NCBI GenBank assembly: GCA_947073895.1
Contig: CAMTNN010000005.1
Span: forward strand, 1-22,363
DNA from: an uncultured cyanobacterium
Lineage (GTDB): Bacteria > Cyanobacteriota > Vampirovibrionia > Gastranaerophilales > Gastranaerophilaceae
Length of the DNA stretch: 22,363 nucleotides
Reading direction: 5' to 3'
Shown: positions 1,998 to 20,086 of the stretch, piece after piece
Layout: every line of letters starts with the position of its first letter
Position numbering within the stretch: the stretch's first letter is position 1
Translations under genes and position numbers: made by a program
Notes under the pieces: model-generated
Seen by the model: only the letters and a program-made list of their open reading frames with translations
What the model was told of the DNA's origin: nothing
Database searches by the model: none

Positions 1998-2109
1998 CTT
2001 CAACCAACGTGGACCCGCTTGAAGTATGTTCCAAAGGAGCACGGACGAGCAGATTATAAAAACCGGTAGTTTTAACTAATGTGCTTCCGTCCCTTGTCTA
2101 CGTGCGTAG
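1998..2109 (+). repeat. Structured repeat element, copy A1
   Basis: First of five related intergenic elements. It has a 5' hairpin CTTCAA (1998-2003)/TTGAAG (2019-2024). The long-range family stem is GGAGCAC (2036-2042) with GTGCTTCC (2081-2088, one extra T). UGUUC (2027-2031) can pair with GGACG (2043-2047), giving an H-type pseudoknot with a 4-nt first loop as in copies A2 and A3. The long loop has AAAACCGGTAGTTTT (2059-2073), which can form its own small hairpin. A near-palindrome CTACGTGCGTAG (2098-2109) closes it. No coding gene with a ribosome binding site follows directly, unlike A2 and A3. Confidence 0.7.
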
Positions 2110-17174: not shown

Positions 17175-17417
17175 TTACGCTCCCAGTCCGGCATGGAATG
17201 TTCTCGAAATGACATCATCTTGTTGTTCTTTTGTTAATTTGATAAAGTTTACTGCGTAGCCTGAAACTCTTACGGTAAGCTGTGGATATTTTTCAGGATG
17301 TGCTTGAGCATCTAACAATGTATCTCTGTTAAATACGTTAACATTCAAATGGTGTCCGCCTTTTTCAACATATCCGTCTAATAAGTTGATTAAGTTTTCT
17401 TCTTGTTGTGTTGTCAT
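17175..17417 (-). CDS. grcA: Stand-alone glycyl-radical domain (GrcA-like, PFL C-terminal)
   Basis: An 80-residue protein matching the extreme C terminus of pyruvate formate-lyase: [13 protein letters not shown], then [18 protein letters not shown] with the radical glycine G53 in RVSGYAV (50-56), ending [14 protein letters not shown]. In E. coli the equivalent GrcA/YfiD (127 aa) replaces the damaged C terminus of oxygen-cleaved PFL. This version is much shorter but has its own strong ribosome binding site (AAGGAG), promoter and terminator, so it is not a broken pfl fragment. Activation requires a PFL-activating enzyme and a PFL core encoded elsewhere; neither is here. A palindrome at about -41.5 of its promoter and a divergent Crp/Fnr gene suggest oxygen or redox control. 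Confidence 0.85.
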
Positions 17418-17501: not shown

Positions 17502-17612
17502 CTACGTGCGTAGACATGGGTCGGACAACATTGGTGAGGTTACAAGAGTGGCGTTGGATTACGGGTTGTCCTCGAGAGTGGGGCTACTAGGTGGTTCGAG
17601 TTGGTTGAGAGG
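17502..17612 (-). repeat. Structured repeat element, copy B4 (in crp leader)
   Basis: Fourth family copy, minus orientation relative to A1-A3. The family stem is GGACAAC (plus 17523-17529) with GTTGTCC (17565-17571), loop 35 nt. A flanking stem CTCGAG-type pairing joins 17571-17576 and 17595-17600. CTACGTGCGTAG is at 17502-17513. It aligns well to the reverse complement of A1: both have GTAGACA-GGG-CGG, then CATT, and end with TTGGTTGA. On the plus strand it forms the 5' leader of the Crp/Fnr gene, ending at its Shine-Dalgarno. Confidence 0.65.
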
Positions 17613-17620
17613 TGAAATTT

Positions 17621-18283
17621 ATGGAAAAGTATTTTAATCAAATAAAAAATTCTAATTTGTTTTTTGGAATGAGTGATGAAGAATTAAAAGGAATTCTTGA
17701 GTGTTTTAATGCTCATGTAAAATCTTATAAAAAAGATGAAATTGTAATTCGTCAAGGAGATGTTATTAAAAGTCTTTACCTTATATTGGAAGGAAATATT
17801 AATATAGAAAAAGACACTTACTGGGGCAGAAGAATAATTATTTCCAAGCTTTCAGCGAATGACAATATCGCACTTTCTTTTGTTGCATCAAAGTCTATGA
17901 AATCAACTATTGATGTCATGACGACCGAAGATACAAAGCTTCTTGTGCTTAATTATGAAAAATGTACTTCAATGTGTCAAAATGCCTGCACAAGACACAA
18001 GGTTTTAATAAGTAATATGTTTGAAATCTTGGCGAAGGAGAATTTAGAGCTTTTGCAAAAAATTGAGAATATTTCGCAAAAAACTATTCGAGATAAGCTT
18101 TTAACCTATCTTTCCAATGAAGCAAAAAAGAATAAAAATAATTCTTTTGAAATTGCTTTTAACAGACAAGATTTGGCTGATTATCTGAATATCGATCGTT
18201 CAGCCATGAGCTTTGAATTATCAAAGCTTCAAAAAGAAGGATTACTTCAATACGATAGAAATAAGTTTATTTTGAAAAGTTGA
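17621..18283 (+). CDS. Crp/Fnr-family transcriptional regulator
   Basis: A 220-residue regulator with an N-terminal cyclic-nucleotide-type sensor domain (about 10-115: FFGMSDEEL; YKKDEIVIRQGDVIKSLYLILEG), a dimer helix (about 128-150) and a C-terminal winged HTH (about 155-218: FNRQDLADYLNIDRSAMSFELSKLQKEGLL, recognition helix RSAMSFEL). The cAMP pocket residues of true Crp (RxS after GExxGE) are not evident. Three spaced cysteines C115, C119, C123 (CxxxCxxxC) lie before the dimer helix, a common feature of clostridial-type members; an Fnr-style N-terminal Cys set is absent, so redox sensing is possible but unproven. The start at 17621 has TGAGAGG eight bases upstream; a GTG at 17612 is rejected. 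Divergent from grcA, and directly before the ATP synthase promoter. Confidence 0.88.
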   Translation: MEKYFNQIKNSNLFFGMSDEELKGILECFNAHVKSYKKDEIVIRQGDVIKSLYLILEGNINIEKDTYWGRRIIISKLSANDNIALSFVASKSMKSTIDVMTTEDTKLLVLNYEKCTSMCQNACTRHKVLISNMFEILAKENLELLQKIENISQKTIRDKLLTYLSNEAKKNKNNSFEIAFNRQDLADYLNIDRSAMSFELSKLQKEGLLQYDRNKFILKS

Positions 18284-18376: not shown

Positions 18377-19072
18377 ATGAGCGAAGGACATTGGATTGTA
18401 GAGAAAGTAATACTTGGGCATAATATGTCTTTCAATATGGATACGCTTGTGACAATGTGGGCGGCAATGGCATTTTTGCTCATTGTTTCTTTTATTGCAA
18501 CAAGAAAGTTGTCTATTTTCCCGTCTAAATTACAATTGGTGTTTGAATCAATTCTGGGATATTTTGATAATCTTGTTAACGGAATGATTCATGAAGGTGG
18601 AAGAAAACACTTTCCGCTTATTGCATCATTATTTTTGTTTATTGTAACAGCAAACCTTATGGGACAGTTGCCATTGAAAATGATTGAATTAAAACATGGT
18701 GAAATGGCATCTCCTACTAATGATATCAATTTGACAGCAGGTTTAGCTGTAATTGTACTGGTATATTATGTTATTGCAGGTGTTATTAAGAAAAAAGGCA
18801 AGTTCTTATTGCATGAATTCTCATTTGTGGGCATAATTTCAATGCTTGTTGAAATTTTGGAATTAGTAACAAGACCTCTGACTCTTGCATTACGTTTATT
18901 TGGTAATATTTTGGCAGGTGAAATCCTTATCACAGCTTTGTTGGGCTTGTGTGCTTGGGGGTTGCCTTTGCCGATAATGTTTTTTGAAATATTGGTTGCT
19001 TGCGTACAAGCACTGGTGTTTACAATGTTGACAACTGTGTATATCGCAACAGCTGTTAATGAGAATCACTAA
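18377..19072 (+). CDS. atpB: ATP synthase Fo subunit a
   Basis: A 231-residue integral membrane subunit with five or six helices that forms the two proton half-channels. The stator arginine is R173 in LTLALRLFGNILAGE; the next conserved helix is LPLPIMFFEILVACVQALVFTMLTTVYIATA. The N-terminal start is the ATG at 18377, because GAAGAGG directly abuts the earlier in-frame ATG (18368) but sits nine bases from this one. First gene of the operon; no atpI is found upstream, where cyanobacteria usually have one. Downstream is the structured element A2 and atpE. Confidence 0.95.
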   Translation: MSEGHWIVEKVILGHNMSFNMDTLVTMWAAMAFLLIVSFIATRKLSIFPSKLQLVFESILGYFDNLVNGMIHEGGRKHFPLIASLFLFIVTANLMGQLPLKMIELKHGEMASPTNDINLTAGLAVIVLVYYVIAGVIKKKGKFLLHEFSFVGIISMLVEILELVTRPLTLALRLFGNILAGEILITALLGLCAWGLPLPIMFFEILVACVQALVFTMLTTVYIATAVNENH

Positions 19073-19073
19073 A

Positions 19074-19162
19074 ACGCGAACCAGCGCGGAGTCTGTTCAA
19101 GAGGCGCACGGACGGATAATAAAATAAACTGGTAAGGTTACATAATGTGCGCCGACCAAAGG
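19074..19162 (+). repeat. Structured RNA element, copy A2 (leader of atpE)
   Basis: It fills the 99-bp gap between atpB and atpE. A small 5' hairpin CGCG-AACCAG-CGCG (19075-19088) is followed by a possible H-type pseudoknot. Stem 1 is GTCTGTTC (19091-19098) with GGACGGAT (19110-19117). Stem 2 is GGCGCAC (19103-19109) with GTGCGCC (19147-19153). Loop 1 is 4 nt, loop 3 is 29 nt and contains AAACTGGTA (19127-19135). The Shine-Dalgarno AAAGG (19158-19162) begins four bases after stem 2, and ACCA next to it can pair with TGGT in the loop. The stem triplet CGC/GCG differs from A1 and A3 with compensation. Confidence 0.75.
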
Positions 19163-19171
19163 ATGAAAAAT

Positions 19172-19417
19172 ATGGAAGAAGTAAAAACAATTTCTGATTT
19201 AGCACAATTAGGTGCAGGTATTGCAATGGGTTTTGGTGCAATCGGTGCCGGACTTGGTATTGGTTTTGCAACAAAAGGTTTGATGGATGCTATTTCTAGA
19301 CAGCCTGAAATCGCAGGTAAAGCAGTTGGTTTCTTCCTTGTTGGTGCTGCTCTTGCTGAAGCTTGTGCGATTTATGCTTTAGTTATCGCAATGAAACTAT
19401 CAGGAATGATGGGCTAG
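19172..19417 (+). CDS. atpE: ATP synthase Fo subunit c
   Basis: An 81-residue two-helix proteolipid that forms the rotor ring; 81 is the usual cyanobacterial length. Helix 1 is glycine-rich (GAGIAMGFGAIGAGLGIGFA, residues 14-33), the polar loop is RQP (43-45), and the ion-binding carboxylate is E63 in GAALAEACAIYALV. Na+-binding rings have Gln in helix 1 and EST or ETT at the carboxylate; here the positions are I30 and EAC, so proton coupling is expected. The ATG at 19172 is chosen over 19163 and 19145, because AAAGG abuts 19163 and is nine bases from 19172. Its start is controlled, in all likelihood, by element A2. Confidence 0.96.
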   Translation: MEEVKTISDLAQLGAGIAMGFGAIGAGLGIGFATKGLMDAISRQPEIAGKAVGFFLVGAALAEACAIYALVIAMKLSGMMG

Positions 19418-19418
19418 G

Positions 19419-19510
19419 TGCTACGCACGTAGATATATTGTCGGTTGACATAAGTTGTGACTACAGGCTAGGATTGTAGTGACAGGTCAACCTCAAAGTG
19501 AGACTACAAG
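19419..19510 (-). repeat. Structured repeat element, copy B5
   Basis: Minus-orientation copy in the atpE-b' gap. Family stem GGTTGAC (plus 19443-19449) with GTCAACC (19486-19492), loop 36 nt, triplet TTG/CAA. CTACGCACGTAG is at 19421-19432. TTGTAGT (19474-19480) can pair either with ACTACA (19460-19465) or with ACTACAA (19503-19509), so two exclusive folds are possible. It sits back to back with copy A3, giving an inverted pair of about 190 bp. Confidence 0.65.
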
Positions 19511-19515
19511 TTCAG

Positions 19516-19608
19516 CCGGTTTGGACAAGCCGGTCGTCTGTTCAGAAGGAGCACGGACAAGACGGAAAATTAAATTGGTAGTTAGGTGGAATGTGCTCCG
19601 CCAAAAGG
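19516..19608 (+). repeat. Structured RNA element, copy A3 (leader of b' gene)
   Basis: A 5' hairpin CCGGTTT-GGAC-AAGCCGG (19516-19533) is followed by the pseudoknot. Stem 1 is GTCTGTTC (19536-19543) with GGACAAGAC (19555-19563, one bulged A). Stem 2 is GGAGCAC (19548-19554) with GTGCTCC (19593-19599). Loop 1 is 4 nt and loop 3 is 29 nt, exactly as in A2. The loop holds AAATTGGTA (19573-19581). The Shine-Dalgarno AAAAGG (19603-19608) follows four bases after stem 2, and CCAA beside it can pair with TTGG of the loop. Confidence 0.75.
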
Positions 19609-19615
19609 TTAGAAT

Positions 19616-20086
19616 ATGGAGTTTAATGCTACCTTTATAGTTACAATAATATCATTTATAGTGTTTGTCTTTTTGATGAACAAGATTTTGTATGCGCCTG
19701 TCTTAGAGATTATGGAAGAGCGTAAGAATTTTGTTGATGGAAATTATAATTCTGCAAGTGAAAATGATGCAAAATCAGAAGAACTTATAAATCAAAAAGA
19801 AGAAAAACTGGCAGGTGCAAAAGATGACGCTCGTGGTAAATATGTTGAAGCATTAAACGAGTATAAATCTCAAAAATCAGATATGGTTGCAAGTGCTCAA
19901 AATTCTGCTAAAGATGAAATTGAACAGGCAAGAGCTGATTTGCAGAGGTTATCTGATGATGTGAAAAACGGACTAAAGGGTTCTATGACAGATTTAGCAA
20001 ATGATATTGTCGAAAAAGTTATCGGATACAGAAGTGAAGTCAACGGGTTTGACGACGAGACGGTAAATAAGGTTTTATGGAGCTAG
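19616..20086 (+). CDS. atpF': ATP synthase Fo subunit b' (second b-type stator)
   Basis: A 156-residue peripheral-stalk subunit: an N-terminal membrane helix (residues 6-25, FIVTIISFIVFVFLMNKILY), APVLEIMEERK, then a long coiled coil of K, E, A and D. Separate b and b' subunits as a heterodimer are a mark of photosynthetic bacteria and cyanobacterial relatives. It is called b' because it precedes b, as in the cyanobacterial operon, and keeps the APVLxxMxxR block usual for b'. AAAAGG lies seven bases before the ATG, at the 3' edge of element A3. The 198-bp gap before it, filled by copies B5 and A3, is unusually long for an ATP synthase operon. Confidence 0.9.
   Translation: MEFNATFIVTIISFIVFVFLMNKILYAPVLEIMEERKNFVDGNYNSASENDAKSEELINQKEEKLAGAKDDARGKYVEALNEYKSQKSDMVASAQNSAKDEIEQARADLQRLSDDVKNGLKGSMTDLANDIVEKVIGYRSEVNGFDDETVNKVLWS

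Follow-up and report, generated by a model that had tools for sequence, protein, structure and literature searches.

A dispersed structured repeat with a covarying interrupted stem at gene borders in one genus of Gastranaerophilales

The window (the whole stretch of DNA analysed, 22,363 nucleotides) corresponds to contig C5 in a draft genome of 1.52 Mb, which is 83.6% complete and consists of 210 contigs. Pfam profiles place atpB, atpE, the genes for two b-type subunits and the delta-subunit gene on this contig, and the start of atpA was read there by eye. Five copies of a structured element lie in the window, two of a leader type (B and C) and three of a trailer type (A, D and E). Searches used two covariance models, R1, built from six copies with the interrupted stem P3 as its sole structure, and R2, built from 89 aligned matches including duplicates.

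Element B (19071..19158, plus strand; R2 E 5.8e-20) is of the leader type and occupies the whole gap between atpB and atpE. The blind stem scan described below places its P3 arms, GGCGCAC and GTGCGCC, at 19103..19109 and 19147..19153. A second helix, P2, would pair GTCTGTTC (19091..19098) with GGACGGAT (19110..19117) across P3. A Shine-Dalgarno-like AAAGG stands at the 3’ end (19158..19162), and the ATG of atpE follows at 19172. Element C (19514..19604, plus strand; R2 E 3.3e-18), also of the leader type, lies 5’ of the first b-type subunit gene (atpF’, PF00430), with P3 arms GGAGCAC/GTGCTCC at 19548-19554 and 19593-19599, AAAGG at 19604..19608 and the ATG at 19616. Head-to-head with C, and antisense in the operon, is trailer-type element E (19438..19521, minus strand; R2 E 1.0e-6), which has P3 arms GGTTGAC/GTCAACC at 19443-19449 and 19486-19492 and a palindrome at 19421..19432; on the plus strand GTGCTACGCACGTAG starts at 19418 at this element, immediately past the atpE stop codon TAG (19415-19417).

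The other two copies, both trailers, lie outside the operon. Element D (17518..17606, minus strand; R2 E 6.4e-7) sits between a stand-alone glycyl-radical domain gene (17175-17417, minus strand) and a Crp-type regulator gene (17633-18283, plus strand), both named by Pfam. Its P3 arms, GGACAAC/GTTGTCC, are at 17523-17529 and 17565-17571, and its palindrome, at 17502..17513, reads CTACGTGCGTAG on the plus strand and CTACGCACGTAG on the minus strand. Element A (2002..2093, plus strand) is matched by both models and begins 4 nt past the stop codon of an HTH gene (1779-1997; PF01381, HTH_3). Its 5’ P3 arm, GGAGCAC (2036..2042), is followed by a 38-nt loop and by the 3’ arm GTGCTTCC (2081..2088), which has one T too many, so that A lacks a clean 7-bp stem and the blind scan reports no perfect stem here. 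The palindrome CTACGTGCGTAG follows at 2098..2109, and past it an A-run forms the T-run of a terminator-like hairpin on the opposite strand. Next to element A, the minus strand (about 2110-2240) may encode a small RNA that has a terminator of its own; this region had no Rfam match in a scan of the window, and its letters GGAATTAAGAATAGCTGGAAGTATGAAAAAG... recur beside a trailer-type array in genome G014 (L054, reverse strand).

A blind scan of the window for GGnnnAC-N28-45-GTn’n’n’CC found exactly four perfect stems, those of B, C, D and E; 200 dinucleotide shuffles averaged 0.01 and never gave more than one. Their loops measure 37, 38, 35 and 36 nt and their central triplets are CGC, AGC, ACA and TTG, respectively. 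An earlier, sequence-only reading of this DNA had proposed five intergenic elements with a common 7-bp stem. All five are real and are among the 53 matches of R2 in the genome at E<0.01; the perfect stem holds for B, C, D and E but not for A, with its extra T. The short AAT or TAT before the 3’ arm and the G(N)C after it are present in all five by inspection, and the count of four different stems was also right, five being reduced to four because A and C both have AGC. The elements exceed that description in extent: the model has 91 positions plus a tail, GTAG motifs are conserved, and the 3’ ends are of two kinds or more.

The core of the element is the interrupted stem P3, 7 bp closing a loop of about 36 nt and kept by compensatory change. 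In an alignment made by MAFFT without structural information, the three central column pairs of P3 outranked all others after APC correction (G 128.7, 93.8 and 83.9) and consisted of 98% standard pairs over the 53 rows kept of 72 at less than 80% identity, rows shorter than 75 nt having been left out beforehand. Pairing was scored on 82 of 150 unique copies (11 lacked clean arms and the remainder were redundant at 80%). Among these 82 there are 22 different central triplets, and P3 pairs at all seven positions, G.U included, in 75, a fraction biased upward because both models score P3 and so favour paired copies. Arms taken from the same copy gave -10.6 kcal/mol, compared with -4.4 when arms were dealt among copies (z -21, 0/300); the copies are related, so these shuffle z-values are inflated and are not probabilities. 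P3 is kept equally, at z -14.4, in leader copies and in copies without a Shine-Dalgarno sequence or start codon, among them the antisense D and E. Of 574 cells, nine are G.U, four A.C and six other mismatches, and the excess of G.U over A.C weakly favours the sense strand. Paired exchange on this scale is hard to reach without selection on pairing, and the selection for folding that had been proposed from the window is well supported by the column pairs and the dealt arms.

Other parts of the fold vary less clearly together. P2 gave z -3.6 over the copies (0/300), weak support for a helix that crosses P3 as a pseudoknot; GTAG is common about 10-13 nt 5’ of P3, abutting P2. A third helix, Pa, is weakly supported in leader-like copies only (z -2.6, against +1.1 in the other copies). 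A 3’ hairpin around the Shine-Dalgarno sequence, P4, was rejected, as it showed no covariation (z +1.4). At their 3’ ends, the copies at 1501 in L024 and L034 carry TTTCAACTTTTG/CAAAAGTTGAAA, a 12-bp inverted repeat that surrounds the 3’ arm of P3 and by eye would form a fold competing with P3.

The family is large in its own genome. With element B as BLAST query three more clear copies were found there; R1 gave 53 matches at E<=10, and R2 gave 64 at E<=10, of which 53 had E<0.01. The sequence-only reading had placed the concentration of elements in the ATP synthase operon. This describes the window, where three of the five (B, C and E) are found, but not the genome: among the 53 copies, those placed at atp genes are B, C, E and one before atpG (C160), many neighbours of trailer copies having no gene name, and the motif is not tied to ATP synthase.

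The covariance search of related genomes found further covarying copies. Within the genus 26 of 38 genomes, the present one included, match R2 at E<=0.01. In a separate set of 57 genomes, R1 matched 14 at E<=0.1. Across the order (117 genomes) matches are confined to one of 37 genera, and across the phylum (146 genomes) they comprise this genome and one weak match outside the genus (G215, E 0.006), which among so many genomes we take as chance; filters were stricter in the 57-, 117- and 146-genome searches (76, 37 and 29 candidates scored per genome), so that faint or divergent copies in other genera could have escaped them. In these searches the family is restricted to one genus, with nothing convincing outside. 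An exact pattern scan of GTDB contigs returned six stretches, all matched by R2; the title of five is Candidatus Gastranaerophilales and that of the sixth ‘uncultured bacterium’. The same kind of pattern had no match in viral contigs; the 15-mer CTACGTGCGTAGCAC had 14, at none of which R2 finds an element, and a viral origin was dropped.

The copies end in several ways. By script, the 3’ tails of the 53 copies fall into 18 Shine-Dalgarno-like, 21 CTTGTT-like, 11 palindromic and three others, with some palindrome-ended copies (e.g. C21:13759) put in the CTTGTT class. In relatives a further, T-rich 3’ end, mostly TTCTTTTCTTTTTGGTTA-like, replaces AAAGG or the palindrome (L060, L100-L102, L105, L107 and L137). 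Under one rule for both sides, 17 of the 53 copies have an open reading frame of 50 codons or more that starts, in sense, 8-20 nt past the 3’ end, and two have one at the mirror position at the 5’ end; with at least 100 codons the counts are 14 and one. After three of the 17 (C34:1284, C22 and C21) were set aside, 14 were taken as gene starts, with spacings of 11-18 nt; they include one nested copy (C142) and a 56-codon frame on C17 that matches no family. AAAGG is found in 12 of these 14 leader copies, the usual order being AAAGG, an A-rich spacer and the ATG of one of a set of unrelated genes.

Profiles name the genes behind the leaders of this genome as ATP synthase subunits, DnaJ, FliG, S18, BioY, ExbD/TolR, an MgtE-like protein, an amino-acid permease, a methyltransferase and a CDP-alcohol phosphatidyltransferase whose score is below the pgsA cut-off and which we call pgsA-like; PyrG, ObgE, TrmL and others are added in relatives. 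One downstream gene was named rpsR (not clpX) and one TM1266-like (not ilvN). We saw no common pathway among the named downstream genes of this genome and its relatives, nor a ligand-linked gene set in this genome.

Trailer copies lie 3’ of stop codons, or abut opposite-strand stops and T-runs through the CTACGTGCGTAG palindrome. Ten of the 32 copies with a palindrome or CTTGTT end start 1-11 nt past a sense stop. Among the 18 genus junctions listed with GTGCTACGCACGTAG (17 sites, since L119 is L163), an opposite-strand stop lies within 6 nt in seven and a T-run is present at seven. Three junction stops are split after TA, the element supplying the G.

Comparison of genomes shows tandem growth, nesting and patchy presence at fixed sites. 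Between atpE and atpF’, arrays of 101-nt units are present in G018, G028 and G032 (3.3, 5.2 and 5.2 copies by TRF), and tandem units are also found there in G076 and G077; G009 has four units 5’ of the epsilon-subunit gene, and two copies of the window’s own genome sit within another copy. The atpB-atpE gap holds the element in G000 and G018 and a plain AAGGAG-type leader in G028, G003 and G009. The atpE-atpF’ gap measures 4-16 nt in 13 of the 51 loci parsed (of 52), at least ten short-gap loci being mis-parsed so that the gap as printed takes in the last part of atpE; it measures 96-658 nt in ten loci with an element and 25-173 nt in several other species with no recognisable element. Letters resembling AAAGGTTA still close several of the element-free gaps and may be what decay has left. 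A spreading repeat of the REP or BOX kind is the reading suggested by these tandem and nested copies and by the uneven occupation of fixed sites.

Of 30 loci with the pgsA-like gene, ten match R2 in the leader at E<0.001 (G000, G022, G069, G032, G067, G074, G075, G006, G068 and G070), and G010 does so weakly (E 0.017). Six different paired stems occur at this leader (GGTGCAC, GGAGCAC, GGAAGAC, GGCACAC, GGGATAC and GGCGCAC). Different paired stems in the same leader of different species suggest, short of proof, an RNA role in place. In the array of G076, GGGTGAC/GTCACCC units stand beside units changed on one side only (GGGAGAC/GTCACCC), and G077, the sister of G076 in the pgsA tree, has GGGAGAC/GTCTCCC. 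Before atpF’, with the same flanks, we read by eye GGGAGA/TCTCCC in G078 and GAGAGA/TCTCTC in G065 and G021; there R2 gives E 0.42 for G078 and no match for G065 and G021, in which the script favours another stem. R2 had no match in the leaders of G073, G026 and G001, and since the stem scripts find 5-10-bp stems in element-free leaders too, P3 in copies so strongly decayed was read by eye and proves nothing alone. Outside P3, identity among 39 leader copies was 0.628 at the same locus, 0.613 in the same genome and 0.569 for neither, so that descent and copying both seem to be at work; change in place at fixed leaders may instead be replacement by new copies.

Rfam gave nothing at E<=5 at the elements of the window. 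At E<=1, a search of 14 loci gave a pair of matches below cut-off, one of them to RT-17 (28.3 bits against a cut-off of 40.4), which shares 11 nt with an element end. No gathering cut-off was reached by any model, the atpC motif and ribozymes included, in agreement with the sequence-only reading, which had recognised no standard riboswitch class and had named a significant match to a known family as what would count against it. Riboswitches of the preQ1 type, built on an H-type pseudoknot, have a ligand pocket and a common downstream pathway; the element resembles them in having a putative pseudoknot immediately 5’ of the Shine-Dalgarno sequence but differs in that no common pathway is seen. 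The attC sites of integrons carry the boxes RYYYAAC/GTTRRRY, no pair of which was seen by eye, and this candidate was dropped.

The nearest known kinds are BOX elements and GTAG REPs. Passages on the BOX elements of Streptococcus pneumoniae describe small interspersed repeats with predicted RNA folds and a modular A-B(n)-C structure in which the B module varies in number, with module amplification, insertion of repeat into repeat, co-transcription as 5’ and 3’ extensions and, in 36 cases, supply of a gene’s stop codon (PMC3049150). Our element likewise has many extragenic folded copies, tandem amplification, nesting, patchy orthologous sites and stop codons completed at three junctions, and as a kind it fits a BOX-like dispersed structured repeat. 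It is set apart from BOX by description: whole units of about 101 nt repeat here and leader copies with a terminal Shine-Dalgarno sequence are prominent, and the string ‘Compensat’ occurs 0 times in the main text of the BOX paper (PMC3049150). GTAG REPs are described as palindromes of 20-40 bp with GTAG at one end that flank RAYT genes (PMC3733652), and selection for complementary mutations has been suggested for REPs in a passage of PMC2817692. The element shares with GTAG REPs an extragenic position near gene ends, GTAG motifs, palindromes and clustering, but it is 91 nt or more in length, P3 is interrupted by about 36 nt and GTAG abuts the weakly supported P2 rather than P3. Membership among REPs fails on size and on the absence of a RAYT link. 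In marine Beggiatoaceae, many sets of TAACTGA direct repeats likewise stand within nucleotides of the start codons of functionally unrelated genes, with a suggested translational role, but they are heptamers, and the abstract and section headings of that paper describe no covarying stem (PMC4679880). Searches of open-licence PMC text for Gastranaerophilales riboswitches and for repetitive extragenic elements of Melainabacteria returned no paper, and this family is named in no title listed by other searches of that text. We file the element as a new variety of dispersed structured repeat.

Y1 genes (PF01797) are present in 15 of 28 genomes, and 0 of 30 Y1/RAYT loci carry a copy, the lone R2 match there having E 1.4; mobilisation by a RAYT, as for REPs, is thus not supported. 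Several genomes of the genus have RAYT-like Y1 genes of about 180 aa (L166-L168, L174, L176 and L179), some beside short palindromes of their own, e.g. GTAGGATGTGGTAAATC...GATTTACC in L174 and L179, which look like ordinary REP/RAYT systems unrelated to the element. A fragment of an IS200-type TnpA gene at a contig edge (L165, G000:C2:1-330) has a flank that looks richer in GC than the window, and our impression is that it may be contamination of the MAG.

The account that we favour, with moderate confidence, is that of a genus-restricted repeat which spreads to gene borders and whose P3 domain joins, as RNA, in the translation of some genes. The elements would be copies of one dispersed extragenic repeat of about 95-110 nt, spreading within genomes as single copies, by tandem amplification and by nesting, and settling at gene borders. 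When co-transcribed as a leader, the P3 fold 5’ of the Shine-Dalgarno sequence would act as a small cis-acting RNA domain that shields the ribosome-binding site from upstream sequence. We propose that arrival in tight operon gaps is tolerated because the ribosome-binding site is kept free, and that the gene then becomes dependent on the element. Trailer copies, by analogy with REP and BOX, would serve as folded 3’ UTRs or as spacers between converging genes. The RNA fold probably matters in leaders. Against the account, no transposase, target-site duplication or terminal inverted repeat was found, the last two, which would mark a MITE, being sought by eye in the aligned copies and their flanks, and the Y1 loci lack copies.

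The leaders could also be a dedicated cis-regulatory RNA, riboswitch-like or a protein-bound translational switch, whose fold near the Shine-Dalgarno sequence responds to a signal and controls a regulon and from which the trailer copies derive. Leader copies are in sense and 11-18 nt from a start codon, P2 would cross P3, and leaders recur at the same genes across species (pgsA-like, atpF’, atpE, atpG, atpC, obg, pyrG, fliG and rpsR), which could mean regulation. We nevertheless hold this to be rather unlikely: the named genes share no pathway, related species differ in whether a given locus has a copy, a start codon at 8-20 nt is missing from 36 of the 53 copies, and antisense, nested and five-unit tandem copies would be odd for a switch. 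It also seems improbable that the element is a DNA-level mobile palindrome of the IS200/IS605, REP or attC kind, in which P3 is kept because the folded strand is a recombinase substrate and RNA effects are incidental. The equal maintenance of P3 in copies without Shine-Dalgarno sequence or start codon fits that reading, as do the nested and tandem copies, GTAG motifs like those of GTAG-type REPs (PMC3733652), and the 14 occurrences of CTACGTGCGTAG in the genome against 0 for its reversed control; but the Y1/RAYT loci are empty, no autonomous version was seen and the strong gene-start bias of AAAGG-ended copies is left unexplained. Chance resemblance or an assembly artefact, which a draft MAG in 210 contigs might invite, is hardly credible given the near absence of stems from shuffled windows, the presence of copies in named GTDB records and in 26 of the 38 genomes of the genus, and the column covariation of P3, which refutes it too.

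Within the favoured account, that of a spreading repeat whose fold takes part in translation, we offer tentatively a bolder and less likely version in which the repeat is a mobile ribosome-binding-site cassette, its working Shine-Dalgarno 3’ end guarded by a covarying pseudoknotted RNA, that rewires translation. Such a cassette would enter gaps of a few nucleotides in essential operons (atpE-atpF’, pgsA-like and obg) and amplify there in tandem.

Most dispersed repeats that fold are short palindromes, and their folding could be put down to the DNA level. In this genus a genome can carry as many as dozens of copies, the stem that closes a long loop shows compensatory exchange, and several copies stand at leaders common to different species. 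The family thus offers a natural experiment on whether selection for the RNA fold maintains a spreading repeat, and on how the operon gaps of small gut Gastranaerophilales genomes gain new ribosome-binding sites.
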